From Sandaracinus amylolyticus (GTDB lineage Bacteria; Myxococcota_A; Polyangia; Polyangiales; Sandaracinaceae), in contig NZ_CP011125.1 of NCBI RefSeq assembly GCF_000737325.1, forward strand, positions 4,092,001-4,156,000: a stretch of 64,000 nt of DNA, written 5' to 3'. The notes beneath the pieces were generated by a model. It ran no database searches and was not told the DNA's origin. It saw only the letters and a program-made list of their open reading frames with translations. A program made the position numbers and the translations under genes. Below are positions 9,865-47,205 of this stretch, piece by piece (positions within the stretch are counted from its first letter, which is position 1; each line of letters opens with the position of its first letter).

Positions 9865-11427
9865 TCAGCGGCCGCCGAAGGCCAGCGGCACGTCGAACCG
9901 CACGAACCCACCGGACGGCGGCGGGAACGTCCAGCGCTCGGCGTAGTTCCGCACGCACTGCTGGAGGCCCTCGGGGACGTCCCCGCCGACCACCTCGGCC
10001 CGCGACACCGACCCGTCGAGCCCGACCGTGATGCGCACCGTGAGACGGCCCTCGAGGTCCGGCCGCTCGCGCATGCCGAGCTCGTAGCACTGCCGAAGCC
10101 GCGGCAGCCCGCGCTGCACGGTCTGTCGGATCTCCGCTTCGGGCAGCGTGCCCTCGCGCACCCGCGGCGCCTGCGGTTGCAGATCCGTCGCGTCGAGCGC
10201 GACGCCGTCCTCGCCGACCACGACGACCGTGCGGAACGCGCGCCCGGTGCTGTCGAACCCGCCGATGTTCAGCTCGCCGGGGCGCACGCGCATCGCGAGC
10301 TCGCCCGCGCCCTGCGCCTCGACGTCGCCGATCTGCCACCGCACGAGCCCGGGGTGGCGCACGTGCAGCACACCCGTGCCCGCGTCCGCGTCCGCGATGC
10401 CGTGGGGCTCGCGCACCCGCGGCACCTCACCGACCTCGGCGCTGCTCCAGCGCGCCGGCGCGCGAACGATCTCGACGCGCCCGTCGGGGCGGTGCACCTC
10501 GACCTCGCCCTCGGCGACCGCGAGCCGCACGACGCCGCCCTCGTCGAGCACCACCTCCGCGCGCGTCACGCGCAGCTCGAAGCGGTGCTCCGACGCGATC
10601 ACCACGAAGCGCGACTCTCCCTCGAAGAGCGGCCCGCCCGTCGACGCCGCGAGCGTGCCCGCGCGCAGATCGATCTCGACGTCGCGCTCGCGCAGCCGCG
10701 TCAGCAGCGCTTCGCTCGCGGGGTACGCGATCACGCCGGTGTCCTCGGCGAGCCGCACGTGGACCTCGCTCGCGTCGTCGGTGCGCAGCGTGGTCGCGTC
10801 GGCGAGCACGTCGTCGACCGCGGCGGCGCGCGTCGTCCCATCGGCCGCGACGACCTCCGCGCCGCGCCCCGCGACCAACGTCACCGTCGCGGCCAGCGGC
10901 GCCGCTTCCGCGATCACCTCGGGGTCCACCGGCTCCGGCGCGGGCGCTTCGATCATCGGCGCGGGCGGCGTCGGGCGGGCGATCTCGGGCGCGCTCGGCG
11001 GCCGCGTCGCGACGTACGCGAGCACACCCGCCGCCGCGAGCGCGGCGACGCCCCACGCTGCGCGCCGCGCGGCCGGCGACGACCTCGCGCTCAGTCCGCG
11101 CATCGGCGCCGACGGTGCGGCGGTCCGCCCGGGAGCCGACGACGAGCGCGTCGCACCCTCGGGGCTCGTCGCGCACTGCGCCTCCGCGATCTTCTCGACC
11201 TCGCGCTCGAGCGCGAGCTCCATGCGCGACCAGTCGAGCTCCGGCGGCGCCTCGTCGCGCGCTTCGTCGGCGATCCGGTCGTAGAGCGCCATCGCCGCGA
11301 GCGCCTGACGGCACACGTCGCAGCCCGCGAGGTGTCGCTCGATGCGCGCGCGCCCTGCGGCCGACAGACGTCGCTCCTGTAGCGCGAGCAGCGCTCCGAT
11401 CTTCGGCGAGTGCTCCCTCTCGCCCAT
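9865..11427 (-). CDS. anti-sigma-like zinc finger, FecR-like and AgmX/PglI C-terminal domain protein
   Basis: 520 residues. The N terminus holds a cytoplasmic anti-sigma zinc finger (His32, Cys36, Cys39 in RHLAGCDVC). One membrane helix follows at about 124-141, and the outside part has a FecR-like beta domain at about 180-330. The end (about 430-520) is an AgmX/PglI-type TonB-like domain with QCYELGMRERPDLEGRLTVR and a second Cys before the FPPPSGG segment. Its ATG overlaps the upstream ECF sigma stop as TGATG, so it is almost surely that factor's membrane-bound regulator. Joining an envelope-machine domain to an anti-sigma finger suggests that outside force or protein contact is signalled to the sigma factor; that is inference. 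Confidence 0.8.
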   Translation of the reverse strand: MGEREHSPKIGALLALQERRLSAAGRARIERHLAGCDVCRQALAAMALYDRIADEARDEAPPELDWSRMELALEREVEKIAEAQCATSPEGATRSSSAPGRTAAPSAPMRGLSARSSPAARRAAWGVAALAAAGVLAYVATRPPSAPEIARPTPPAPMIEAPAPEPVDPEVIAEAAPLAATVTLVAGRGAEVVAADGTTRAAAVDDVLADATTLRTDDASEVHVRLAEDTGVIAYPASEALLTRLRERDVEIDLRAGTLAASTGGPLFEGESRFVVIASEHRFELRVTRAEVVLDEGGVVRLAVAEGEVEVHRPDGRVEIVRAPARWSSAEVGEVPRVREPHGIADADAGTGVLHVRHPGLVRWQIGDVEAQGAGELAMRVRPGELNIGGFDSTGRAFRTVVVVGEDGVALDATDLQPQAPRVREGTLPEAEIRQTVQRGLPRLRQCYELGMRERPDLEGRLTVRITVGLDGSVSRAEVVGGDVPEGLQQCVRNYAERWTFPPPSGGFVRFDVPLAFGGR

Positions 11428-33733: not shown

Positions 33734-35026
33734 TCAGGGCGAGTCGGATGCGGTCGCCGGCGCCGCCTCGACCGCGCGCTCTTCGATCCGCATGCGGGAC
33801 AGCTCGCGCGTCGCGTCGGCGCGCACCGAGGGGATCGTCTGCGCGCGCTCGAGCGAGCGCTGCGCGTCCGCCACGCGCCCCGAGCGGCGCTGACACTCCG
33901 CGAGCTCGAGCCACGCGCGCCCCGCGTCCGCGTAGCGCGGATGACGCGAGAGCAGCGATTGGTACTGCCGCACGCACTCGCCGTACGCGCCTTGTCGCGC
34001 GGACGCCTGCGCCTGACGGTGCAGGGCTTCCGCGAGCATCGCGTCCGAGTCGGGGTCGGGCCGCGGGACCTCGTCGCGCGACTCATAGCGCGGCGTGGTC
34101 GTGGCCGGCGGCGGCGCGCTCGGCGCGACCGCCGGTGCGCGCTCGGCCTCGGTCGCGGCGTACGCGGACGTCGTTCCCTCCGCGCGCGGCTCGGGCAGCG
34201 GACCGTCGACCACCGCTCCGACCGCCTCGCCCGGCGCGACGTCTTGCTCGATGCCGGCCAGCGGCTCGCTCTCGACCCGCTGCGACCGCGCTGCGAGCTG
34301 CTGCTCGGGCGCCTCGCGCGTCGTCGTCGTCCGCCGCTCCACCGGCACGACCGGCGCCACACCGGGCCGCGTCGTGGGCGCCGGTGCCGCGGGCTCGGCG
34401 ACCTCCGGCTCGACGACCTCACCGACCGGCGCGAGACGGCGCGTGCGCGGATCGAAGTCGAACGCCAGCGGCTCCGCCGGCTCGAGCGCGCGCGACGGGC
34501 CGACCTCGCCCGCCGGATCCGGCTCGACGAGCGCGTCGGTGCTCGCGCGCTCGTTGCGCCCGCGCAGCGCGGGGAGCGACCACAGGCCGATGCCGATCAT
34601 CAACATCAGCAGCGTCGCCATCGCGACCTGCGGGCCCATCGCCATCGAGCCCAGCCACCGCAGCAGGTCCGTCCACCAGCCGCGCTCGGCGGGCGCCTCC
34701 GACGCTCTCGGGCGCCGCTGTGCCGCCGCGGCGGCCGGAGCCTCCGCCGGCGCGCTCACCCGCGCGACCGTCTCGGCCGCCTTCGCCCGCGCCGCTGCCC
34801 GCACCGCATCGAGCAGGTCCGCCCGCGGCTCGACCGGCTCCATCTTCCGCGCGAGCGCACGCCCGCCCTCGAGCCGCGCCAACGAGCGCCCGCAGCCCTC
34901 GCACCCCGACACGTGGGCACGCACGTCGCGCGCCTCGCGGTCGGGGAGCTCGCCGTACACCAGCTCGAGCAGCCGGTCCTCGACCGACTCGCACGGCAAC
35001 GGCGTCTGTTCGCTGCTGTCGGTCAC
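33734..35026 (-). CDS. zinc-finger anti-sigma-like protein with TPR tail
   Basis: 430 residues. N-terminal zinc finger (His38, Cys42, Cys45 in HVSGCEGC), a Pro/Ala-rich link, one membrane helix (about 131-152), a long disordered region rich in Pro, Ala, Glu and Thr, and two TPR-like units near 335-400 (AYGECVRQYQSLLSRHPRY, RAWLELAECQRRSGRV). Its ATG overlaps the ECF sigma stop (ATGA), the standard sigma/anti-sigma layout. TPRs outside the membrane may sense a partner protein. The membrane topology is inferred. Confidence 0.82.
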   Translation of the reverse strand: MTDSSEQTPLPCESVEDRLLELVYGELPDREARDVRAHVSGCEGCGRSLARLEGGRALARKMEPVEPRADLLDAVRAAARAKAAETVARVSAPAEAPAAAAAQRRPRASEAPAERGWWTDLLRWLGSMAMGPQVAMATLLMLMIGIGLWSLPALRGRNERASTDALVEPDPAGEVGPSRALEPAEPLAFDFDPRTRRLAPVGEVVEPEVAEPAAPAPTTRPGVAPVVPVERRTTTTREAPEQQLAARSQRVESEPLAGIEQDVAPGEAVGAVVDGPLPEPRAEGTTSAYAATEAERAPAVAPSAPPPATTTPRYESRDEVPRPDPDSDAMLAEALHRQAQASARQGAYGECVRQYQSLLSRHPRYADAGRAWLELAECQRRSGRVADAQRSLERAQTIPSVRADATRELSRMRIEERAVEAAPATASDSP

Positions 35027-35721
35027 CGCTCCAGCTCTCTGACGTAGTCCTCGTACTCCGCGAGCGCGCGCTGGAGCCGCTCCAGCGCGTACCGCATCCG
35101 GCTCTTCACCGTGTTCTCGGGGACCCCGACGATGTCGGCGATCTCCTTGAAAGCCATGTTCTGGAGCTCGCGCATCAAGAACACCTCACGCTGCTCCTCG
35201 GGGAGCTCCTCGACCGCCGCCGCGATGCGCGCCTGGAGATCCTGACCGATCACCGCGCGATCGGCCGCCGGGCCCTCGTTCGCCACCCGATCGAGCAGGG
35301 TGGCGCCCTCGGCCTCGTCGGCCTTCAGCGGGGCGTCGAGGGAACGATGCCGCCGGAAGACCATCTTCCGGCTGGTGTCGATGCAGAGATTTCTCGCGAT
35401 CGTGTAGAGCCACGTGCTGAACTTCGAGTTCCCTTGGAATTCCGAGGATCTCTGCACCACCTTCAGGAACACGTCCTGGAGGAGCTCCTCCGCGCGGTCG
35501 CGATCGCGGACCGAGCGCAGGATGAAGTTGAAGAGGGGACGTTGATACCGGCGCAGGATCTCCTCGAGCGCCGCCGCGTCCCCGTCGTTGAAGCGCCGGA
35601 CCAGCTCCTCGTCGGAGAGCCCGTCGTGCACACCGCTCACGCTCGGCCTCCGCTCTCCGGGAGGCGTCGTGTTCGCGTCCGACGCGCGAGCGGCGAGAAC
35701 GGTCTCATGGCCGGGGCGCAT
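35023..35721 (-). CDS. ECF-type RNA polymerase sigma factor, RpoE-like
   Basis: 232 residues. Region 2: LFNFILRSVRDRDRAEELLQDVFLKVV and FSTWLYTIARNLCIDTSR; a short acidic linker; region 4: LPEEQREVFLMRELQNMAFKEIADIVGVPENTVKSRMRYALERL. The layout with a zinc-finger membrane partner four bp overlapping is typical of RpoE-like factors released by proteolysis or conformational change. The ATG at 35721 gives a 35-residue variable N terminus; an internal GTG would shorten it. It is divergent from the envelope-machine operon, 305 bp away. Confidence 0.9.
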   Translation of the reverse strand: MRPGHETVLAARASDANTTPPGERRPSVSGVHDGLSDEELVRRFNDGDAAALEEILRRYQRPLFNFILRSVRDRDRAEELLQDVFLKVVQRSSEFQGNSKFSTWLYTIARNLCIDTSRKMVFRRHRSLDAPLKADEAEGATLLDRVANEGPAADRAVIGQDLQARIAAAVEELPEEQREVFLMRELQNMAFKEIADIVGVPENTVKSRMRYALERLQRALAEYEDYVRELER

Positions 35722-35772: not shown

Positions 35773-35801
35773 TTGACCCCCTCCCGGGGCGTTGGTATAA
35801 G
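35773..35801 (+). promoter_or_regulatory. near-consensus sigma-70 promoter
   Basis: TTGACC (35773-35778), a 17-bp spacer and TATAAG (35796-35801). Five of six bases match in each box, which stands out in DNA this GC-rich. It would start a transcript near 35808 reading into the eight-gene envelope cluster. Confidence 0.75.
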
Positions 35802-36026: not shown

Positions 36027-36803
36027 ATGCGCAGGGTGATGGCGCTGTGGACGTCCGTGGCGCTCGCCACGCTCGTCGCCGGGCTCGCTGTCGCGCAGGA
36101 CGGATCGCCCACGACAGGCGAGACCTCGCCGACGACCGGTACAGCCACGACCACGGCAGCCCCTGATGCCAGCGGCGAGCCCGCCGCGACCGGAACCGAC
36201 GCGGCCGCGACGACGACGGGCACCGAGGAGATGGACGCCGGCACGTATGCCGTGCGCCTGCGCGACCTGGAGCAGCGCATCGACGCGCTCAAGGAGCAGA
36301 TCTTCCGCAGCAAGGCGCGCCTCTCGCTGCTCGCCGAGACGGTCCTCGGCGGCGTCGTCGCCGGCGCGCAGGCCGTCATCATCCACGAGAACCGGATGAG
36401 CTCCTCGTACCGCCTGGTGAAGGCGGTCTACGCGCTGGACGGCGCGCGCCTCTTCAGCAAGGCGGACGAAGAGGGCACGCTGGGCGACCAGCAGGAGTTC
36501 GAGATCTACAACGGCTCGATCGTCCCCGGTGAGCACAACATCACCGTGAACCTCGAGTATCGCGGCCACGGGTACGGCATCTTCTCGTACCTCAAGGGCT
36601 ACCGCTTCCGCGTGCGCAGCAGCTACACGTTCAGCGCGCCCGAGGGCAAGCGCATGACGATCCGCGTCGTCGGCTACGAGAAGGGCGGTCCCACCGCGCC
36701 GCTCGAGGAGCGCCCCGCCGTGCGGTACGTCGAGCACGTCGAGGGGACGGGCCGCGGCGAGGAAGCCGCGCCGGCCGGTGCCGAGGGCGAAGGGGGCGAG
36801 TGA
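36027..36803 (+). CDS. exported coiled-coil protein, first gene of the envelope-machine operon
   Basis: 258 residues. Signal peptide (RVMALWTSVALATLVAGLAV, cut after AQ), a Thr/Ala/Gly-rich low-complexity region to about residue 68, a short coiled coil (LRDLEQRIDALKEQIFRSKARL, split as heptads at 78-100), then a beta domain with IYNGSIVPGEHNITVNLEYRG and RVRSSYTFSAPEGKRMTIRV. The acidic Gly/Glu/Ala tail ends at the stop. It has a fine ribosome site (GAGGAG, 5 bp spacing). Homologues are often mislabelled as acyltransferases; nothing here supports an enzyme. The stop abuts the next ATG (TGATG), so it belongs to the same machine. Confidence 0.75.
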   Translation: MRRVMALWTSVALATLVAGLAVAQDGSPTTGETSPTTGTATTTAAPDASGEPAATGTDAAATTTGTEEMDAGTYAVRLRDLEQRIDALKEQIFRSKARLSLLAETVLGGVVAGAQAVIIHENRMSSSYRLVKAVYALDGARLFSKADEEGTLGDQQEFEIYNGSIVPGEHNITVNLEYRGHGYGIFSYLKGYRFRVRSSYTFSAPEGKRMTIRVVGYEKGGPTAPLEERPAVRYVEHVEGTGRGEEAAPAGAEGEGGE

Positions 36804-39283
36804 TGACGCAGCAGCCGCGGACGTGGCTGCGCCGAGTCGCCGGGGAGCGGGCGGCCGCGAGTGAGCGGGGCCCGAGCGAGCGCGCATCGGTGCGCGTCGT
36901 GTCTCGGCGTGCGGTGTCGTTCGTCGCGAGCGCGCTGCTCGCGGGCGTGCTCTTCGCGCCAGTCGCGCAGGCGCAGGAGGACGAGGCGATCGAGCGCGAG
37001 CTCGTCGGGCTCGAGGGTCAGGTCGCGGCGCTGATGAGCGAGCCGCTGCGCAGCGAGAGCCTGCGCAGCGCGACGTTCGTCGAGGAGCGGCTGACCGACG
37101 GCGAGCTCTTCTACCGCCTCCAGGACTACATCCGCGCGTCGATCATCTTCACGGACATCGTCGACAACTACCCGCAGCACGCGGCGTTCCCCGACGCGCT
37201 CTTCCTGCTCGCCGACTCGCTCTTCCGCGCGGGCGACTACCTCGGGGCGCGCACCCGCTTCCGCGAGGTGCTCTCGCACTCGTCCGAGCCGGGGTTCCGG
37301 CCCTTCATCCAGCGCTCGCTGGGGCGCCTCATCGAGATCGCGATCCACACCCGCGACTTCGAGGGGATCGACGACGTCTTCGCCCAGCTGAACCGGCTGC
37401 CGCCCTCGGAGATCGAGGCAGCGACGACGTATTTCCGCGCGAAGTACCTCTACAATCGCGCCGTGCCCGCCGACGACGTGCTTCGCGCTCCCGGCGGCTC
37501 GCAGGACACCGGTCATCCGGCGACGACGGGCATCGATCTCGCGACGCTCGACCAGGCGCGCCAGGCGTTCGAGGCGGTCCAGGAGGGCAGCCCGTACTAC
37601 CCGCAGGCGCGCTACTTCATCGGCGTCATCCACACGCTGCGCGAGCAGTATCCGCAGGCGATCGAGGCGTTCACGCGCGTGCTGCGTGCGCCGGCCACGA
37701 CGCAGGAGCACATCCAGGTCTCGGAGCTGACGCAGCTCGCGCTCGGCCGGCTCTACTACGAGACCGATCAGCTCGAGCAGGCGGTCGAGGCGTACCAGGC
37801 GATCCCGCGTACGAGCGCGAACTTCGACGAAGCGCTCTACGAGATCGCGTGGGTGTACATCCGCATGGGCGACGCGACGCGCGCGGAGCGTGCGCTCGAG
37901 GTGCTCGCCGTCGCCGCGCCGGACTCGCACTTCCTCCCGGACGCGAAGATCCTCCGCGGCAATCTCCTGCTGCGGAACGGCCGCTTCGAAGAGGCGAACC
38001 GCGTGTTCCGCGAGGTCGCGCGCGAGTTCGGGCCGGTGCGACGCGAGCTCGACGAGATGCTCGCGGAGCACCAGGCGGACCCGATCGGCTACTTCCGTCA
38101 GCTCGTCCGCGAGAACATGCAGACGTTCGACGCGAACGCGTTCCTGCCGCCGCTCGCGCAGCGCTGGGCGAGCATGGAGGGCGACATGGATCGCGCGCTC
38201 GGCGTGCTCCAGGACCTCGCGGAGGCGCGTCAGCTCGTCACCGAGACGTCGCTGCTCGTGCAGCGCCTGACCGCGGCGCTCTCGCAGCCCAACCGCGTCG
38301 CGGTGTTCGCGGATCTGCGCCGCCAGCGCGAGCTGACGACGGGCTTCCGCAACCGCGTGCTGCGCCTGCGACAGCGCGCGATCGCGCTCGAGTCGCGCGG
38401 CGCGGCCGCCACGCCGGAGCTCGAGGAAGTGCGCGCCCGGCGTCGCGAGATCGAGCGCTTCATCGATCGGATGCCGACGCGCGAGGAGGACTTCGCCGAG
38501 ATGGACGGCGAGGTCGTCGGTCGTTATCGCCGCCTCGAGCGCGAGCTGTCGCGCATGGAGGTCGAGCTGCTCGGCATGGAGGCGCGCATCGCCGCGACGG
38601 AGCGCTACCTCGCGGACACGTCGGGCACGCGCGACGCGAGCGGTGACGAGGCGGTCGCGAACGAGCTGCGCCAGCAGCGCCAGGCGATCGACGACTACCG
38701 CACCGAGATCGGCCAGCTCCGCATCCTGATCGAGGCGGGACGCCTGCAGGTCGGCGTCGGCGACGACCGTTACCAGCGCCACGAGCGCCTGCGCGCCGAG
38801 CATGCCCGCCTGGTCGGGGAGGAGCGCCGGCTCGGTGGTGGATCGAGCCGCATGGAGCCGACGTTCCGGCGCATCGCGACGCTCGAGAGCCAGCTCGACG
38901 CGCGCGACGCGGAGATCGACCGAATCGTCGAGGAGCGCACCGCGTCCATCCGCGCGCAGGTCGACGAGGAGTCGGGGCGCATCGAGGGCTATCGACGCGA
39001 GCTCGGCCAGCTCGAGGGCGAGGCCGAAGAGGTCGTGGGCGCGGTCACGTACCAGAACTTCCGCCGCGTCCAGCAGCGGTTCTACGACCTCGTGCTGCGC
39101 GCCGACGTCGGCCGCATCGACGTGGCGTGGGCGGAGCGTGAGGAGCATCGGATGCGCGTCGAGATGCTGACGCGCGAGCGCTCGCAGGAGCTGCGCTCGC
39201 TCGACGACGAGTTCCGCGAGATCACCGACGAGGGCGGTGGCGGTGCGGCGGCCGAAGACGACGCCGAAGAGGAGACGCCGTGA
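36803..39283 (+). CDS. periplasmic TPR and coiled-coil protein
   Basis: 826 residues. A long N-terminal stretch precedes the signal helix (SFVASALLAGVLFAPVAQAQ). Residues 90-420 carry TPR units (LQDYIRASIIFTDIVDNYPQ, SPYYPQARYFIGVIHTLREQ, QLALGRLYYETDQLEQAVE and others). From about 480 to the end the chain is long Arg/Glu-rich helix, probably a coiled coil. It is likely a periplasmic scaffold of the machine. Start: ATG at 36803 in TGATG; a GTG one codon earlier also works. It overlaps the next gene by GTGA. No cofactor or catalytic motif. Confidence 0.78.
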   Translation: MTQQPRTWLRRVAGERAAASERGPSERASVRVVSRRAVSFVASALLAGVLFAPVAQAQEDEAIERELVGLEGQVAALMSEPLRSESLRSATFVEERLTDGELFYRLQDYIRASIIFTDIVDNYPQHAAFPDALFLLADSLFRAGDYLGARTRFREVLSHSSEPGFRPFIQRSLGRLIEIAIHTRDFEGIDDVFAQLNRLPPSEIEAATTYFRAKYLYNRAVPADDVLRAPGGSQDTGHPATTGIDLATLDQARQAFEAVQEGSPYYPQARYFIGVIHTLREQYPQAIEAFTRVLRAPATTQEHIQVSELTQLALGRLYYETDQLEQAVEAYQAIPRTSANFDEALYEIAWVYIRMGDATRAERALEVLAVAAPDSHFLPDAKILRGNLLLRNGRFEEANRVFREVAREFGPVRRELDEMLAEHQADPIGYFRQLVRENMQTFDANAFLPPLAQRWASMEGDMDRALGVLQDLAEARQLVTETSLLVQRLTAALSQPNRVAVFADLRRQRELTTGFRNRVLRLRQRAIALESRGAAATPELEEVRARRREIERFIDRMPTREEDFAEMDGEVVGRYRRLERELSRMEVELLGMEARIAATERYLADTSGTRDASGDEAVANELRQQRQAIDDYRTEIGQLRILIEAGRLQVGVGDDRYQRHERLRAEHARLVGEERRLGGGSSRMEPTFRRIATLESQLDARDAEIDRIVEERTASIRAQVDEESGRIEGYRRELGQLEGEAEEVVGAVTYQNFRRVQQRFYDLVLRADVGRIDVAWAEREEHRMRVEMLTRERSQELRSLDDEFREITDEGGGGAAAEDDAEEETP

Positions 39284-42200
39284 TTCGCACGCGCGTGTCG
39301 TTCCGTGTCTCGGCGGCCTTGCTCGGTGCGATGGCCGCGCTCGTGAGCGCCCCGCGCGCGCTCGCGCAGGACGGTGGTGCGCAGGACGCAGGCGCGTCCG
39401 ATGGTGGCGTGCCGCTCGGAACGGTGAGCGTCGACGGCGGCGTCACCGCGACGACCACCGGCGACGCCGCCGCGCCCTGGGCGGGCACGGTCGACGTGCC
39501 GCTCCCCGCGTTCCTCGACACCACCGATCGCCGCATCCGCGACGACCGCCCGCCGCCGAGCGCCGAGCAGGTCGCGGCGCTCCGCGAGATGGAGGCCGAG
39601 GTCGGTCGCTTCACGAAGACGGGCACGTCGTATCGCGAGGCGATCCGCTCGATCCTGCGCCGCGAGTACACGCAGCGTCGGCGCGAGCGCGAGCAGGGCT
39701 ACGCGCGCCAGATCCGCGAGGAAGAGCGCCTCCAGAACGAGGCGCGCGAGCGCGCGATCCGCCTGTTCGAGCGCTTCGTCCGCCGTTACCCGGACGACCC
39801 GACGTACACGCCGGACGCGATGTTCCGGCTCGGCGAGCTCTACTACGAGCGCAGCGCGATCGCGTTCCAGGACGCGGCGCTCGCGGGGCAGACGCCCGAG
39901 TCCGGGCACCCCGACTACATGCCGACGATCTCGCTCTATCGCGAGCTCGTGCGCCGCTTCCCGAATTACCGGCGGATCGACGGCGTCTACTATCTCATCG
40001 GCTACTGCCTGAACGAGATGGGCGAGATGGCCGAGGCGCGCCTCGCCTGGCTCAACCTCGTCTGCGCGAACCGCTACCACTACACGGGCGAGTCGCTCCC
40101 CACGCCGGACACCACGGGTGAGGGCGACGCGGGCACCGCGAGCCCGCTCGGCCCCGAGGCGCACCCGGCGCTCACGCTCGATCCGACGCCGCAGAGCGGC
40201 GCCGACGAGCCGTTCATCGATCCCTACGCCGACTGCCAGCCGGTCACCGAGGGCGCGGAGTTCGTCAGCGAGACGTGGCTGCGCATCGGCGAGTACCACT
40301 TCGACTTCGACTACGAGCCGCACGCGCTCGAGCGCGCGATCAGCGCGTATCGCAAGGTCCTCGCGGACCCCGAGGACCGCAACTACAACCTCGCGCTCTA
40401 CAAGGTCGCCTGGGCGTACTACCGCGGCAGCCGTTACCCCGAGGCGATCGAGCACTTCGTCCAGCTGATCGACTGGTCCGATCGCGAGTACGAGCGCACC
40501 GGCCGCGCGGGCTCGGAGCTGCGCGCCGAGGCGGTGCAGTACCTCGGCATCACGTTCGCGTACGACGACTGGAACGAGGACCAGATCCCGGATCCCGACG
40601 AGGGTCAGCCCACCGGGTTCCAGCGGATCCAGAACCCCGAGCTGATGCCGCAGGATCGACCGTGGACGGTCGAGATCTACTTCCAGCTCGGCCAGATCTA
40701 CTTCGAGGAAGACCGCTACGACGAGGCGATCGAGGTCTGGGAGTACGCGATCCGTCGCTGGCCGCTGCACCACCGCGTGCCCGAGATCGTGAACCAGATC
40801 GCGCGTGCCCACGAGCGTCGCGGGCGGATGCGCGAGGCGCAGGAGGAGCGCTTCCAGCTCGCCGACTACGGTCAGGGCTCGGAGTGGTGGGAGGCGAACC
40901 TCGATCATCCGATCGAGCAGCGTCGCGCGGAGCAGCTGGCCGAGGCGTCGATCATCAACGCCGCGATCCAGCACCACCAGCAGGCGCAGCGCATGCGTCG
41001 TCTCGCCCTGGAGAACCAGGACGAGCGGATGCTCCAGGAGGCGATCGCCGAGTACAACGTCGCGGCGCAGGGCTACCAGCAGTACATCGAGCAGTACCCG
41101 AACAGCCCGAACGCGTACGAGCTCCAGTACAACCTCGCGGACGCGCTCTTCTGGTCGCAGCAATACGAGCAGGCGGCCGCGCAGTACGCGGCGGTGCGCG
41201 ACTCGAACCTCGACGATCGTTACCTGAGCGAGTCGGCGCGTCGCGTGGTGCTCTCGCTGCAGTACATGCTCGAAGACGCGCAGCGTCGCGGCGAGATCGA
41301 AGTGCGCGACGAGCCGCCGGCGGTAGACCCGGGGCCGCCGCCGCGCGTCCGACCGGTCGAGATGCCGCAGCTCGTGCAGCGCGTCGCGCAGGCGCGCGAG
41401 ATCTACCTCGCGCGTGTGCCCGCGGCGCAGGACCGCGAGGGCGTGCGCGCGGCGTACGACTACAACAACACGCTGCTCCTCTACAACTACGGCTGGTGGG
41501 AGCAGGCCCGTGAGCGCTTCCGCCGCATCTACCTCGAGCGATGCCGTGGTCCGCAGGCGAGCGAGGAGGGCCAGGTCGCCTGGATCTCGCTGCGCAACAT
41601 CGCGGTCCAGCTCGGCGACACCGAGGAGGTCGAGCGCCTCGCGCGGGATCTCCAGCAGCGCCAGTGCACGTTCAGCCCCGACGCGAGCGCGCCGAGCGCC
41701 GTCGACTGCAACGACCCGGCGAACCAGGACAACCCGCAGTGTCTCGTGACGCGGGACCTCGGGAACATCCGGTTCCAGCGCGCGCTCGAGCTCTACCAGC
41801 GTGCGCGCGGTGATCTCCCGCAGGAGCAGCTCTGCCCGGAGGCGCCGACGGCCGAGCAGGTGCAGCTCTTCGAGCAGTCCGCGACCGACATGGTCAACGC
41901 GGTGAACGACGATCCGCGCCACGCGGACGCGCCGCGCGCGCTCATCCAGGCGGCGGTCGCGCTCGAGTGCACCAGCCGGTACGAGTCGGCGTCGCGCGTC
42001 TATCAGCGCGTGGTCGACGAGGTCGGTCCGGTGCGCGCACAAGAGCCCGAGCAGCAGCAGCGGCTCGACTCGATCCTCGCGACTGCGTACTTCCGCCTCG
42101 CGTACACCGCGAACCGGTTCTTCGACTACGAGCGCGCGATCGAGAGCTACCGCGTGCTCGCGGACTCGCCGCGTTTCGCGAGCTCGACGGATCCCGGGAT

Positions 42201-43236
42201 CCAAGAGACGCGGACCGACGCGCTGATCAACGCGGCGCGCATCCTCGAGTACCAGCAGGACTACAACCGCGCGGCCGACTACTACCGTCGCGCCGCCGAG
42301 GCGCAGGGCACGCCGCCCGACGTCGCGCGCAGCGCGCGCTTCCGCGTCGCGGAGATGGCGTTCAAGCGCCGCGACTGGAACGGCACCATCCGCGAGATGC
42401 GCGCGTTCATCGACCGTTACCGCGGCGATGCGGCGGCGGGCGAGCTGCTCGTGACCGCGTACTGGCGCATCGCGCAGGCGCGCCAGGAGCTGCGTCAGAC
42501 GCGCGACTACCGCACCGCGCTGCAGGACGTCGTCGACGCGTTCTCGCGCGCCGGTCAGGAGCGCGGATCGATCGCGGCGGAGTACGCCGCGCAGGCGCGC
42601 TTCACGATCGTCGACGAGAACATGGCGGCGTTCGAGACGTTCGCGATCAACCCCGGCAGCCCGGCGACGCTCGAGGCGTACGTGAACAGCGTCGCGCGTC
42701 AGATCGAAGAAGGCTCGGCGCGCGCGAACACGCTCGTGACCGGCTACGCGCCGGTGCTCGACTACGGGCGTCCGACGTGGACGATCGCGGCGTTCGTGCG
42801 ACAGGGACGCGTGTACGAGGTGCTCGCGCGCGCGGTGCTCAACACGCCGTTCGTGATGCCCGCGGACCTCCAGCGCCGGGTGCGCGGTGCGAGCGCGGAC
42901 GTCCGCGAGGAAGTGCGCGTCCAGGTGCAGGACCGCATCCAGCAGACGCTCGATCAGCGCGTGCGTCCGATCGAGTGCTTCGCGATCGCGCGTTATGCGC
43001 TCGCTGCGCGCGCGGCGCGCGCGGGCTCGATCGACAACGAGTACACGCGGCTCGCCGCCGACCGCCTCCAGGCGTACGGTGACGAGCGAATCGCCGAATG
43101 CATCGCGGCCGAGCAGCAGCGCGACCCCTCGTTCGCGGCGTACACGCCTGGCGAGTTCGCGCGTGCACGTGCGGGACGTACGCTGCCGATGACGACGGAC
43201 ATCGCGGCGCCTCCGCTCGCGCGGGAGGAGGAGTGA
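39280..43236 (+). CDS. large periplasmic TPR protein, GltD/AgmU-like
   Basis: 1318 residues. Signal peptide (VSFRVSAALLGAMAALVSAP, cut after RALAQ). At least a dozen TPR-like units follow, for example RLFERFVRRYPDDPTYTPDA near 165, YNLALYKVAWAYYRGSRYPEA near 370, IYFQLGQIYFEEDRYDEAIE near 465 and LINAARILEYQQDYNRAADY near 985. Size, export and place before a TPR lipoprotein match GltD/AgmU, the periplasmic TPR protein of the myxobacterial Glt gliding and Nfs spore-coat machines. The match is by features, not by a sequence search. GTG start in GTGA; the stop sits in TGATG with the next gene. Confidence 0.75.
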   Translation: MIRTRVSFRVSAALLGAMAALVSAPRALAQDGGAQDAGASDGGVPLGTVSVDGGVTATTTGDAAAPWAGTVDVPLPAFLDTTDRRIRDDRPPPSAEQVAALREMEAEVGRFTKTGTSYREAIRSILRREYTQRRREREQGYARQIREEERLQNEARERAIRLFERFVRRYPDDPTYTPDAMFRLGELYYERSAIAFQDAALAGQTPESGHPDYMPTISLYRELVRRFPNYRRIDGVYYLIGYCLNEMGEMAEARLAWLNLVCANRYHYTGESLPTPDTTGEGDAGTASPLGPEAHPALTLDPTPQSGADEPFIDPYADCQPVTEGAEFVSETWLRIGEYHFDFDYEPHALERAISAYRKVLADPEDRNYNLALYKVAWAYYRGSRYPEAIEHFVQLIDWSDREYERTGRAGSELRAEAVQYLGITFAYDDWNEDQIPDPDEGQPTGFQRIQNPELMPQDRPWTVEIYFQLGQIYFEEDRYDEAIEVWEYAIRRWPLHHRVPEIVNQIARAHERRGRMREAQEERFQLADYGQGSEWWEANLDHPIEQRRAEQLAEASIINAAIQHHQQAQRMRRLALENQDERMLQEAIAEYNVAAQGYQQYIEQYPNSPNAYELQYNLADALFWSQQYEQAAAQYAAVRDSNLDDRYLSESARRVVLSLQYMLEDAQRRGEIEVRDEPPAVDPGPPPRVRPVEMPQLVQRVAQAREIYLARVPAAQDREGVRAAYDYNNTLLLYNYGWWEQARERFRRIYLERCRGPQASEEGQVAWISLRNIAVQLGDTEEVERLARDLQQRQCTFSPDASAPSAVDCNDPANQDNPQCLVTRDLGNIRFQRALELYQRARGDLPQEQLCPEAPTAEQVQLFEQSATDMVNAVNDDPRHADAPRALIQAAVALECTSRYESASRVYQRVVDEVGPVRAQEPEQQQRLDSILATAYFRLAYTANRFFDYERAIESYRVLADSPRFASSTDPGIQETRTDALINAARILEYQQDYNRAADYYRRAAEAQGTPPDVARSARFRVAEMAFKRRDWNGTIREMRAFIDRYRGDAAAGELLVTAYWRIAQARQELRQTRDYRTALQDVVDAFSRAGQERGSIAAEYAAQARFTIVDENMAAFETFAINPGSPATLEAYVNSVARQIEEGSARANTLVTGYAPVLDYGRPTWTIAAFVRQGRVYEVLARAVLNTPFVMPADLQRRVRGASADVREEVRVQVQDRIQQTLDQRVRPIECFAIARYALAARAARAGSIDNEYTRLAADRLQAYGDERIAECIAAEQQRDPSFAAYTPGEFARARAGRTLPMTTDIAAPPLAREEE

Positions 43237-44729
43237 TGGCGAGGGCGCGTTCGAGCGCGATCGCGCTGTTCTGCGGGTGCCTGCTGCTGAGCGCGGGCGC
43301 GCTGCTGCCCGCGTGCGAGCAGCAGGGGGGCACCACCGCCGATCGCGACGACGAGACGTCGGGCGGCGAGGACGAGGGCCGCGACGATCGCGCCGATCGT
43401 GGCGACGTCGAGTCGCCGCCCGGCTCGCGCGAGCCCGAGGGCGACGACGAGGACGATCTCGAAGGCGGCGCCGACGAGACGCCCGCGCCGACCACCGGCG
43501 GCACCGCGCAGACGCCCACGTCGCAGCAGGAGAGCCCGTGGGGCCGCCCCGAGGTCGAGAGCGGCGAGCCGCTCCCGCCGCGGCGTCCGGTCAGCGGCTC
43601 GGCGCAGTCCGCGTACCGTCGTGGCATCGAGGCCGGCCAGCGCGGCGACACCGAGGGCTCGCGCCGCGCGTTCGAGGAAGCGCTGCGCACCGACCCCAAC
43701 GCGTTCCGCGCCGCCTACAACCTCGGCGTGCTCGCCGATCGCGCGGGCAACGCGGACGGTGCGCTCAACTACTACCGCCAGGCGCTGCGCATCCAGCCGG
43801 ACTACGAGCGCGCGGCCGAGGGCATCGTCACGATCTACGTGCGTCGCGGCCAGGCGGCGGACGCGGTCGCGTTCATGGAGCCCCTCGCGCGCCGCTGGGT
43901 GCGCAACCTCCACATCCAGGCTCTCTACGGCGAGGCGCTCATCCACGCGAACCGCCCCGAGGAAGCGATCCAGGCGGCGCGCACCGCGCTGCGCCGCGAC
44001 GAACGCTTCGTCCCCGCGATGCTCGTGCTCGTGAAGGCGAACCTGCGCCGCAACCGCACCGAGCTCGCGCAGTCGATCCTCGACCAGGCGGTCACGATCG
44101 ACCCGAACCACGCCGAGGTGCAGTTCCTCCGCGGGCGCATGCTCCAGGAGCAGAACCAGCTCGGTCAGGCGCTCCAGGCGTATCGTCGCGCGGTCGAGCT
44201 GCGCCCCGACTACGCCGACGCGCGCATGGCGCTCGCGCTCCAGCTCCTCGCGGGCGCGAACTATCCCGAGGCCGTCCAGCAGTTCGAGGCGGTCGCGCGC
44301 CTCGTCGCCGACGTGCCCGAGGTGCACCTCGGCCTCGGCAACGCGTACCGCGCGACGAAGCAGTGGGAGAAGAGCAAGAACGAGCTCGATCGCGTCGTCG
44401 CGACGAGCCCGCGCAGCCCGGAGGCGCACTACGGGCTCGCGCTGCTCTACCTCGAGGCGGGCGCGGAGATGCCGGGCAGCGACCTGCTCACCTCGCTGCA
44501 GCGCGCGCAGCAGGAGTTCCGCGCGTACCGCGACCTGATGGGACCGCGCCTCGCGCGCGACGACCCGTCCACCGCGTACCTCGAGGAGATCACGCGCCAG
44601 ATCGAGCGCGAGCAGCGCCGCATCGAGCGCGACGCCGCACGGCGTCAGCGCGAGGCCGAGCGCGCCGCGCGCCAGGCGGCCGAGGGTGGCGGCGAGGGCG
44701 GGACCACGGAAGGCGGAGGCACGGAATGA
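43236..44729 (+). CDS. TPR lipoprotein, GltE/AglT-like
   Basis: 497 residues. Signal peptide with lipobox LLPAC (Cys27), so lipid-anchored in the outer or inner membrane. An acidic disordered linker runs to about residue 110. Then TPRs to about 430, e.g. SAYRRGIEAGQRGDTEGSRR, FRAAYNLGVLADRAGNADGA and YADARMALALQLLAGANYPE. The C-terminal 60 residues are Arg/Glu-rich coiled coil ending in Gly/Glu. Order and features match GltE/AglT of myxobacterial Glt machines. It overlaps both neighbours (TGATG before, ATGA after). Confidence 0.78.
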   Translation: MARARSSAIALFCGCLLLSAGALLPACEQQGGTTADRDDETSGGEDEGRDDRADRGDVESPPGSREPEGDDEDDLEGGADETPAPTTGGTAQTPTSQQESPWGRPEVESGEPLPPRRPVSGSAQSAYRRGIEAGQRGDTEGSRRAFEEALRTDPNAFRAAYNLGVLADRAGNADGALNYYRQALRIQPDYERAAEGIVTIYVRRGQAADAVAFMEPLARRWVRNLHIQALYGEALIHANRPEEAIQAARTALRRDERFVPAMLVLVKANLRRNRTELAQSILDQAVTIDPNHAEVQFLRGRMLQEQNQLGQALQAYRRAVELRPDYADARMALALQLLAGANYPEAVQQFEAVARLVADVPEVHLGLGNAYRATKQWEKSKNELDRVVATSPRSPEAHYGLALLYLEAGAEMPGSDLLTSLQRAQQEFRAYRDLMGPRLARDDPSTAYLEEITRQIEREQRRIERDAARRQREAERAARQAAEGGGEGGTTEGGGTE

Positions 44730-44995
44730 CGCGTCTCGGACTGTTGCTCGGGCTCGGGCTCTTCGGGGCGGTGCTCTTCGCGCCGACGGATGCCGAGGCG
44801 CAGGCGCGCGGCGGCGGTCGCGCGGCGCGCCAGCCGCGCGTCATCCAGCTCGACGAGATCCGCATCGAGGGTCGCGTCCAGAAGCCGAACGCGTTCTACA
44901 TCCTCAACCGTTCGAGCATCGGCTACGAGGTGCTCGATCTCCGCACGAGCTTCACGCGCGAGGTCGTGCGCAGCGTGCAGCGAGAGCCGTTCTGA
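44726..44995 (+). CDS. small periplasmic protein, GltF-like position
   Basis: 89 residues. Signal peptide (MTRLGLLLGLGLFGAVLF, cut near DAEAQA), a Gly/Arg stretch, and a compact mature part (VIQLDEIRIEGRVQKPNAFY, then LNRSSIGYEVLDLRTSF). The phrase EGRVQKPNAFYI recurs in small proteins next to AgmX/PglI-type genes. In Glt and Nfs loci a small protein (GltF/NfsF) lies between the TPR lipoprotein and the FHA/TonB-like protein; this one has that position. ATG start in ATGA. Its TGA is part of the CTGA junction with the next frame. Confidence 0.65.
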   Translation: MTRLGLLLGLGLFGAVLFAPTDAEAQARGGGRAARQPRVIQLDEIRIEGRVQKPNAFYILNRSSIGYEVLDLRTSFTREVVRSVQREPF

Positions 44996-45558
44996 CCGTC
45001 TTCCACGCGGTCCAGATCGTCTGCTGGGTGGGCCTGGTCGCGCTCGTCGTCGAGCGCCTCCGGGCGCTCTGCGTCTCGGGGCCGGTCGACGTGGATCCGC
45101 TGGTGAAGGCGCTGCGCAGCGCGCCCGAGGAGACGCGCCCTGCGATCGTCGACGCGATCGCGGGCACGTTCGTGGGGCGGGCGCTCGCCCCGCTGTGGCG
45201 CGCCGACGCGCGCTCGATCGACGTGGAGCTCGAGGAGTCGCTCGCGGACGCACGCGCCGCGATCACCTCGCGCCTGCAGGCGATCCGGATCGGGGCGACG
45301 CTCTCGACGTTCCTCGGCTTCGTCGGCGCGGCGATCGCGCTCAGCTGGGTCCACTCCGGCGATCACGGGCTCCTCGCGCTCGATCCTCGCCGCGTCTCGG
45401 CGATCGGCCTGTCGCACGCCGCGCTCTCGATCGCGCTCGGCGTCGGTGGATCGTCGTTCGCCCTCGGCTCCTGGATGACGCTGCGCGCACATGCGCGCCG
45501 GTTGATCGACGAGTGCGACCGGGCCGTCGACCGGGCGCGCGCCGTGAGGGGCAGCTAG
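44992..45558 (+). CDS. MotA/TolQ/ExbB-like proton channel family protein
   Basis: 188 residues. Three helices in the TolQ/ExbB pattern: helix 1 at about 3-22 (TVFHAVQIVCWVGLVALVVE), a cytoplasmic loop of about 80 residues, helix 2 at about 103-120 (LSTFLGFVGAAIALSWV, the place of the family's LGLLGTVxG) and helix 3 near 140-163 (GLSHAALSIALGVGGSSFAL), then an RxxxLIDECDRAVDRA end. No ATG starts the frame; a CTG overlapping the previous stop (CTGA) gives a complete first helix, while the first GTG (45028) would cut it. It may be the AglR-like stator of the machine. A TolR/ExbD partner is not seen here. Family call is by topology and motif, not search. Confidence 0.6.
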   Translation: MTVFHAVQIVCWVGLVALVVERLRALCVSGPVDVDPLVKALRSAPEETRPAIVDAIAGTFVGRALAPLWRADARSIDVELEESLADARAAITSRLQAIRIGATLSTFLGFVGAAIALSWVHSGDHGLLALDPRRVSAIGLSHAALSIALGVGGSSFALGSWMTLRAHARRLIDECDRAVDRARAVRGS

Positions 45559-45571
45559 CCCTCTCACCAGC

Positions 45572-45601
45572 TGGACCATGCGACCGGCCGAGTGATATCG
45601 T
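45572..45601 (+). promoter_or_regulatory. possible sigma-70 promoter before the GltG-like gene
   Basis: TGGACC (45572-45577), an 18-bp spacer and TATCGT (45596-45601), four of six matches in each box. It lies in the 171-bp gap before the GltG-like gene, which is the only larger gap in the cluster, so that gene may have its own promoter. Weak on its own. Confidence 0.25.
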
Positions 45602-45729
45602 CCGGCTCGTCTCACGAGGGGCACGGGAACCTCCGTCGACATCCGTGGTCACACGCCCGAACGGGCACCGACCACACCGCCGACCGGCACCGCGAGAGGG
45701 CCGGAGCGGGGATCAGGAAGACACCAACG

Positions 45730-47205
45730 ATGACCACGCCGCAGGGACCGCAGCAGCAGGGGGGCAAGGCCGCCGGACGTCCGGGCGCGATGACGATGGC
45801 CATGCAGGCCGTCCAGGTGCGTCCCTCGGGCCCGAAGGTCCTGCGCATCGGCGTCATCCAGGGCGGCAAGATCGTCGAAGAGCGCATCATCCGGCAGCGC
45901 GAGACCGTCTCGGTCGGCAGCTCGGAGCGCAATCACTTCATCGTCCCGGGCATGCCGCCGCGCTTCGAGCTCTTCCAGCTCGTCGGCGCCGACTACATCC
46001 TGAACTTCACCGCCGACATGCGCGGCCGCGTGGGGCTGCCGGGCGGTGTCCAGGAGCTCGAGCAGCTGCGCGCGAGCGGCGCGGCGCGCAACGCGGGCCA
46101 GCACTGGCAGGTCAAGCTCAGCGACACCTCGCGCGGCAAGGTCGTCATCGGCGACACGACGCTGCTCTTCCAGTTCGTCGTGCCGCCGCCGGTGCAGCCG
46201 CGGCCTCAGCTCCCGGCGGCGGTCGTCGGCGGGTTCATCGCGGGCATCGACTGGCTGTTCACGGCCTTCGTGATGTTCTCGTTCATGAGCCACTTCGGCT
46301 TCATCATCTTCCTCGAGAACGCCGACTGGCCGATCCAGCCCACGCTCGCGACGATCGACGACCGCCTCGCGGACATGATCTTCAACGAGCCGGAGCCCCC
46401 GCCGGTCGAGGAAGAGGAAGCGCCGACCGAAGAGGCGCCCACCGAGGAGCCGACCGAGGAGGTCGCCGAGACGCCGACGCGTCAGCCGAGCGGTGATTCG
46501 TCGTCGACCCCGGGCGAGACGCAGGGCGAGCGTCAGGCGGCGGCGGACAGCGACGCGCGCATGGCGGCCGAGGCCGCGGCGGCGCAGGTCGACCAGCTCC
46601 TGCTCGGCGCGCTGAGCTCGGAGGGCGGAGCGTTCGCGGACGTGCTCGCGGGCGGCGCGGTGACCGGCAGCGCCGAGGACATCCTCGCGCAGGCGGAAGG
46701 CGTCGGCGTGGCGACGTCGAGCGGCGGCGGCACGCTGCGCGAGCGCTCGGGCGGCGGGCGCGTCGGCGGCGCGACCGAGGGCCTCGGCGGCCTCGCGGCG
46801 GTGAAGGGCGGCGCGACGACGGCGCGCGGCGAGGGCGGCGCGGTCGAGGAGCGTCAGGTGCGCGGTCGCTTCCGCGCGCCGAGCGACGTCGACGACGAGT
46901 CGGGCAGCGGCGACTTCGACCCGCGCGTGGTCATCCGCATGATCCAGACCCGCCAGTCGGCGATCCGCGCCTGCTACGAGCGCGAGCTGCGCGCCGACCC
47001 GACGCTGTCGGGGCGCGTGAAGATCTCGCTGACGATCCAGGAGACGGGCAGCGTCACCGGCGTGCGCGTCGTGGAGAACACGATCGGCAGCGACTCGGTC
47101 GGCTCGTGCGTGACGCGCGTCGTGCAGGGCTTCCGGTTCAATCCGGGCCCCGAGGGCGGCAGCGTCACGTACCAGTTCCCGTTCGTGTTCGAGCCGCAGG
47201 GCTGA
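45730..47205 (+). CDS. AgmX/PglI C-terminal domain protein, GltG-like
   Basis: 491 residues. Cytoplasmic FHA-like N-terminal domain at about 36-150 (VLRIGVIQGGKIVEERIIR, ETVSVGSSERNHFIVPG, GRVGLPGG, GDTTLLFQFV). One long hydrophobic stretch at about 162-196 spans the membrane. A Pro/Glu-rich then Gly-rich linker crosses the periplasm, and residues 400-491 are the AgmX/PglI TonB-like domain (RACYERELRADPTLSGRVKI, VGSCVTRVV, FRFNPGPEGGSV). This is the layout of GltG/PglI, which links the inner-membrane motor to the periplasmic parts in M. xanthus gliding. ATG with ribosome site AGGAAG. A terminator follows. Confidence 0.85.
   Translation: MTTPQGPQQQGGKAAGRPGAMTMAMQAVQVRPSGPKVLRIGVIQGGKIVEERIIRQRETVSVGSSERNHFIVPGMPPRFELFQLVGADYILNFTADMRGRVGLPGGVQELEQLRASGAARNAGQHWQVKLSDTSRGKVVIGDTTLLFQFVVPPPVQPRPQLPAAVVGGFIAGIDWLFTAFVMFSFMSHFGFIIFLENADWPIQPTLATIDDRLADMIFNEPEPPPVEEEEAPTEEAPTEEPTEEVAETPTRQPSGDSSSTPGETQGERQAAADSDARMAAEAAAAQVDQLLLGALSSEGGAFADVLAGGAVTGSAEDILAQAEGVGVATSSGGGTLRERSGGGRVGGATEGLGGLAAVKGGATTARGEGGAVEERQVRGRFRAPSDVDDESGSGDFDPRVVIRMIQTRQSAIRACYERELRADPTLSGRVKISLTIQETGSVTGVRVVENTIGSDSVGSCVTRVVQGFRFNPGPEGGSVTYQFPFVFEPQG

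Follow-up and report, generated by a model that had tools for sequence, protein, structure and literature searches.

Seven co-directional genes, g1 to g7, are read as open reading frames at positions 36027-47205 of the window, the stretch of 64,000 nucleotides analysed here, which corresponds to positions 4092001-4156000 of the 10.33-Mb single-contig genome of Sandaracinus amylolyticus (Table 1). They encode all the proteins that the initial annotation had listed for this region, i.e., an exported coiled-coil protein, two exported TPR proteins, a TPR lipoprotein, a small exported protein, a three-helix protein (g6, termed X in the following), and a protein combining an FHA domain, a transmembrane (TM) helix, and an AgmX/PglI domain. 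That annotation had counted eight genes, seven of them joined by overlaps of 1-4 bp; there are seven genes, and the overlaps do exist but number five, all of 4 bp and linking only g1 to g6 (36800/36803, 39280/39283, 43233/43236, 44726/44729, and 44992/44995). No ATG, GTG, or TTG is situated near the start of the X gene, and the CTG at 44992, part of a CTGA overlap and giving 188 residues, is the inferred start codon. The last gene, g7, is detached from the overlapping genes and likely starts with the ATG at 45730, 171 bp after X, a GTG at 45592, 33 bp after X, being another possible start.

Table 1. Coordinates, within the window, of the operon, its neighbours, and the features discussed in the text
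Feature	Positions	Strand	Description
Anti-sigma-like protein with C-terminal TPR	33734..35026	-	Partner of the ECF factor; anti-sigma and TPR matches are weak
ECF sigma factor	35023..35721	-	Divergent neighbour of the operon; NF009166, 232 bits
Sigma70-type promoter, TTGACC-N17-TATA	35773..35799	+	Faces the operon; conserved in relatives; predicted from sequence
g1	36027..36803	+	258-aa exported protein; coiled coil and beta-rich domain; family unassigned; always first gene of the operon
g2	36800..39283	+	GltC-like, 827 aa, exported, TPR and coiled coil
g3	39280..43236	+	Exported TPR protein, 1318 aa, in the GltD/NfsD position; TPR matches
g4	43233..44729	+	GltE-like TPR lipoprotein; lipobox-like LLPACEQQ
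g5	44726..44995	+	CglF/GltF-like exported protein, 89 aa
g6 (X)	44992..45558	+	Three-helix inner-membrane protein, 188 aa, predicted TolQ/ExbB fold; orphan degenerate AglR
X Ala113	45328..45330	+	Aligned with the pore threonine of TM2 (ExbB Thr148)
X residues 123-130, GDHGLLAL	45358..45381	+	TM2-TM3 loop motif; shared by many X proteins but not by AglR
X Ile147	45430..45432	+	Aligned with the pore threonine of TM3 (ExbB Thr181)
g7	45730..47205	+	GltG-like transducer, 491 aa with ATG start
g7 FHA-fold domain	45829..46188	+	Cytoplasmic; AlphaFold model; FHA matches Z 7.6-9.3
g7 transmembrane helix	46252..46320	+	TonB/TolA-type Ser-3X-His (FSFMSHFGF); sequence and model
g7 AgmX/PglI (TonB-like) domain	46918..47193	+	C-terminal; NF033768 89.5 bits, cut-off 40; PF03544 above cut-off

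The promoter facing the operon is the single match to the pattern TTGAC-N17..19-TATA in the whole 64-kb window (0 in 100 shuffles), and TTGAC-N18-TATA recurs in relatives, in 16 of the 32 intergenic regions, the best shuffled pair reaching 5. The divergent ECF sigma factor gene adjoins the operon in most loci of the order that reach that far and in Polyangiaceae-type loci, and the anti-sigma-like gene is conserved together with it in many loci; this ECF factor, often accompanied by the TPR-tailed protein, stays beside order-level operons with or without X. Control of the operon by the conserved ECF factor is unsupported, because the promoter that faces the operon, and that is conserved, belongs to the sigma70 type. 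A box AGATC-N16-CGTC, located on the opposite strand in relatives, does not exceed chance level in the window. Gene order is kept in all 17 order-level loci (L034-L051), to the extent that their contigs reach. The g3 protein is 53-73% identical across 14 order-level orthologues, and among named relatives an uncultured Sandaracinus (L081) is the nearest to this operon (g3 identity 73%).

The relationship to Glt and Nfs machines proposed in the initial annotation is borne out by NCBIfam profiles, since g2 matches gliding_GltC (NF033756, E 8e-33, 114 bits), g4 gliding_GltE (NF033758, E 9e-34, 117 bits), g5 gliding_CglF (NF033764, E 1.2e-4, 22 bits), and g7 gliding_GltG (NF033760, E 9e-43, 147 bits). 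Homologues of GltC, GltE, GltF, and GltG are thus present in the Glt/Nfs order. All of these matches remain under the equivalog cut-offs (450, 225, 90, and 650 bits, respectively), and equivalog-level identity to the gliding proteins GltC, GltE, and GltG is not reached. No GltD model matched g3 in the NCBIfam search, and the g3 profile finds a 1295-aa TPR protein of the host's own Glt cluster with a weak score of 48 bits. In this second cluster (4843-4862 kb of the genome) the GltG is longer (438 bits), its FHA region being recognised by profiles, and is accompanied by a GltE-like and a long TPR protein. From these sub-equivalog matches and the separate Glt cluster, the operon is, as judged from sequence, a paralogous Glt/Nfs-like machine and not the only Glt-type system of its host. 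In some Sandaracinaceae (L198, L199, and L200) a second g3 copy (565-927 bits) occurs, the rest of the operon being absent from the stretch read.

With Nfs and Glt of Myxococcus xanthus the operon shares GltC-, GltE-, CglF/GltF-, and GltG-like proteins, and a protein in the GltD position, in identical order, as well as a GltG-type TonB-like transducer. It differs from them in the level of all matches, in the alignment of g7 to GltG only from model position 186, in the extra gene g1, in the presence of X between the F and G genes, and in the adjoining ECF pair; moreover, no outer-membrane barrel of the GltA/B/H type was recognised among the seven genes with Pfam or NCBIfam models. No orthologue of the operon was identified in a named Myxococcus. 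M. xanthus itself possesses Glt-like paralogous clusters, G4 and G5, which are dispensable for gliding and whose function is not known (PMC3169522).

The transducer g7 lacks the first, profile-detectable FHA region of GltG, as its alignment starts at model position 186 only. Nevertheless, the FHA domain claimed for g7, which is invisible to Pfam, emerges from the predicted structure: the N-terminal domain is modelled by AlphaFold with pLDDT values mostly above 93, and FHA domains head the VIA list (Z 7.6-9.3). Its phosphothreonine site, read by eye, looks non-canonical, with VGSSE and PRFELF in the window in place of the canonical Gly-Arg and Ser-x-x-His. The AgmX/PglI domain at the other end is common in this genome, with 38 matches, a further one of which lies within the window itself at about 9877-10140 (minus strand), in an open frame of 887 residues.

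The three-helix protein X was proposed to be TolQ/ExbB-like. In a single-sequence search, the window X by itself has no Pfam MotA_ExbB match, which would fit an unrelated three-helix membrane protein that resembles TolQ/ExbB in hydrophobicity only. However, PF01618 gives matches to 7 of the 17 X proteins (1.2e-4 at best), and an independent genome search with PF01618 recovered the X gene in each of two relatives. Comparing the X family with 27 ExbB-type proteins, hhalign gives a collinear match of 98.3% probability (E 2e-14, 176 columns), which drops to 5% when the columns are reversed. With an X profile, AglR-type proteins are retrieved from most genomes of the order, including the stand-alone AglR of the host (E 1.2e-17), and solved ExbB/TolQ sequences score about 1e-4. 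The AlphaFold model of X (pLDDT 95.6) has the three-TM fold with a cytoplasmic helical domain and matches TolQ with a Z of 14.6 over 183 of 188 residues; the first 18 VIA rows are all TolQ or ExbB (Z 12.1-14.6 over 183-185 residues), and unrelated helical proteins follow below. In addition, its slot is identical to that of canonical AglR. An unrelated protein is therefore already largely refuted and hardly credible any more. X is a true MotA/TolQ/ExbB homologue, a member of the family by descent, as far as profiles indicate, and by its predicted fold, by which no functional channel is claimed. Two loci found with the X query (L052 and L053) contain canonical ExbB/AglR types and not X.

X resembles the subunits AglR, TolQ, and ExbB in fold, topology, and its place beside the transducer gene; it differs from them by lacking both pore threonines and an adjacent ExbD and by its new GDHGLL loop, within 188 residues. 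Thr148 and Thr181 of ExbB form a polar ring opposite the ExbD aspartate (PMC7014051) and have been termed essential in a 2026 review (PMC12905483). According to the alignment, both threonines are absent from every X that covers the region, where alanine or hydrophobic residues replace them, whereas they are retained in the AglR of all seven operons with a complete AglRQS set, in L127, and in all AglR and ExbB proteins aligned. No ExbD gene exists in the operon or the window, as noted initially, or beside X in any order-level X locus. In a recent survey, the lack of a linked ExbD was rated as highly atypical (PMC12204202). The designation of X as a channel subunit is thus doubtful, since both essential pore threonines are missing. 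X might still be an active proton channel whose ExbD partner is encoded elsewhere. Its fold is kept over the full length, g7 retains the Ser-3X-His motif, and the genome search suggested earlier did reveal 15 ExbD genes in the host, four of which are remote from all ExbB-type genes found, although none beside X. Given the replaced threonines that would face the ExbD aspartate and the lack of a neighbouring ExbD throughout the order, such an active channel seems quite unlikely.

The ExbD-type genes without a nearby MotA/ExbB match lie at 1335433, 1345666, and 3441830 (minus strand) and 10148920 (plus strand) of the host genome (G000). A frame of 178 residues in another stretch (L188, 7975-8508) has a weak MotA_ExbB match and threonines in both pore positions (GICGTA and NVTAIA), by which it may possibly be a mini-ExbB.

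Seven outgroup loci (L129-L132, L172, L179, and L180) show the gene order g1-GltC-g3-GltE-CglF-AglR-ExbD-ExbD-GltG, the short CglF-like gene being sub-threshold in some of them. A core complex of gltC, D, E, and G with aglR, Q, and S in one cluster has been described (Luciano et al., 2011; PMC3169522), and the outgroup loci similarly carry AglR, two ExbDs, and GltG in one operon; in contrast, the window lineage is devoid of Q and S and its R is degenerate. In L129-L132 the first ExbD has an asparagine at the expected proton-carrying aspartate (PFMNLM) and the second keeps the aspartate (SLMDIM). The order-level loci possess X and no ExbDs. In a further 13 loci (L097, L100-L105, L112, L115, L117, L118, L124, and L125) X is missing and CglF is followed directly by GltG. 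Phylogenetic analysis of g3 places these 13 loci as one clade inside the X-bearing loci (SH-aLRT 100), and the seven AglRQS loci fall outside the group formed by X-bearing and X-less loci; L171 and L181, which also lack X, are on long branches and were left out of this count of nested loss. In one X-less genome (G012) the X profile matches only the AglR-type gene of a triad, at about 49 bits. In another lineage of the phylum, an orphan AglR-like protein (L165, 5052-5822) occupies the slot with both threonines lost and no ExbD recognised adjacent to it. As this R is situated in the AglRQS half of the g3 tree, loss of ExbD may have happened twice.

The machine had initially been considered ancestral or variant. 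An ancestral status is not supported, given the AglR-ExbD-ExbD set that fills the slot in the outgroups and the status of X as a degenerate, fast-diverging remnant that is lost in a nested clade; on the best reading, the window machine is derived and has lost the AglRQS motor of its operon step by step. X profile scores are no higher against operon-borne than against stand-alone AglR, so that the descent of X within the slot rests on its position. In operons that include ExbDs, no protein is better conserved than R (61-91% identity versus 30-70% for g3), whereas the orphan X is its least-conserved and fastest-diverging one (median identity 30% versus 56% for g3 and 60% for GltG).

This rapid divergence, the loss of X in the nested clade and apparently elsewhere too, and copies that are barely recognisable (L090, L091, L121, L190, and L191) might characterise a dying relic that became functionless after ExbD was lost and is on its way out. 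However, the X reading frame is kept across families, the predicted fold is intact with high confidence, the GDHGLL loop motif is common to X proteins, and even in Polyangiaceae-type loci, where X frames are barely recognisable, a membrane-protein frame still occupies the slot. Between the two closest Sandaracinus-type genomes, with exact limits of X, dN is 0.023 and dS 0.245, and at a dN/dS of about 0.09 X is under purifying selection like its neighbours. A mere relic is therefore unlikely.

Outside the operon, the host possesses two AglR-ExbD-ExbD triads arranged head to head (583-587 kb of G000; L184, 9010-13267), and head-to-head AglR-type pairs recur in most sampled genomes of the order. 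In M. xanthus GltG and NfsG are binding partners of AglR, and the Glt and Nfs machines alike draw their power from AglRQS (PMC3169522; PMC3858216). ExbB and TolQ hold the helix of TonB or TolA through their TM1 (PMC12905483). On the basis of this binding, the triads available in trans, and the holding of a helix by TM1, X is proposed to serve the GltG-like transducer of a derived machine as a ring or anchor that does not conduct, any power coming in trans from AglRQS, a proposal to which we give about an even chance. The wider notion of a pseudo-channel, a TolQ/ExbB fold without a channel that selection retains as a passive TonB/GltG-type scaffold, with stages from an in-operon AglRQS to complete loss, is put forward more tentatively.

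Another possibility would be a two-part motor composed of X and g7, in which the TM helix of g7 enters the X pore in place of ExbD. There is a precedent in TolQ-like genes without ExbD that are paired with transpore-helix vWA proteins and for which a two-part motor has been proposed (PMC12204202), and g7 has an N-in topology with an invariant aspartate at the cytoplasmic start of its helix. The absence of a syntenic ExbD is common to both cases, but the window operon is devoid of a vWA protein, its transducer is GltG-like, and the pore residues of X, including the threonine ring, are lost. Furthermore, the aspartate is equally invariant in operons with two ExbDs and is kept in X-less operons, which, together with the lost threonine ring, makes a two-part motor very improbable.

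The Ser-3X-His motif bears on the supply of power. Its presence in the window transducer, as in motor-bound helices, fits trans power by AglRQS. The histidine is kept in the family of the window; it is lost in the 13 X-less operons and in most other X-bearing lineages, in which the machine may lack a power supply. Trans coupling therefore cannot be general. The motif does not track the presence of a motor: L172, L179, and L180 lack it in spite of a full AglRQS, so that it is not diagnostic, and Polyangiaceae-type operons retain it, including L192 without a recognisable X.

For the preferred reading of X as an anchor, the operon would specify an envelope-spanning Glt/Nfs-like complex consisting of the GltG-like transducer in the inner membrane, TPR proteins in the periplasm, and a lipoprotein in the outer membrane. 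The transducer would comprise a cytoplasmic FHA fold, one TM helix, a periplasmic linker, and a TonB-like tip. In the ancestral form, the operon would have included an AglR-ExbD-ExbD motor, encoded between GltF and GltG; the lineage of Sandaracinus and its order would then have lost the two ExbD genes, and AglR would have become X, keeping the fold without the pore threonines. By analogy with ExbB and TolQ, TM1 of this non-conducting ring most likely binds and positions the TM helix of the GltG-like protein. If powered at all, the machine would be driven in trans by stand-alone AglRQS, as AglRQS of Myxococcus drives Glt and Nfs, and by the same analogy surface polysaccharide is the default guess for the cargo that it moves or holds.

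ExbB/TolQ-type proteins have been recognised as subunits of proton-driven motors. The loci described here present a series in which the motor is complete, degenerate, or absent within one conserved gene order, and this series makes it possible to test a Glt-like envelope bridge without a motor and to test the structural role of an ExbB-type ring apart from ion flow.
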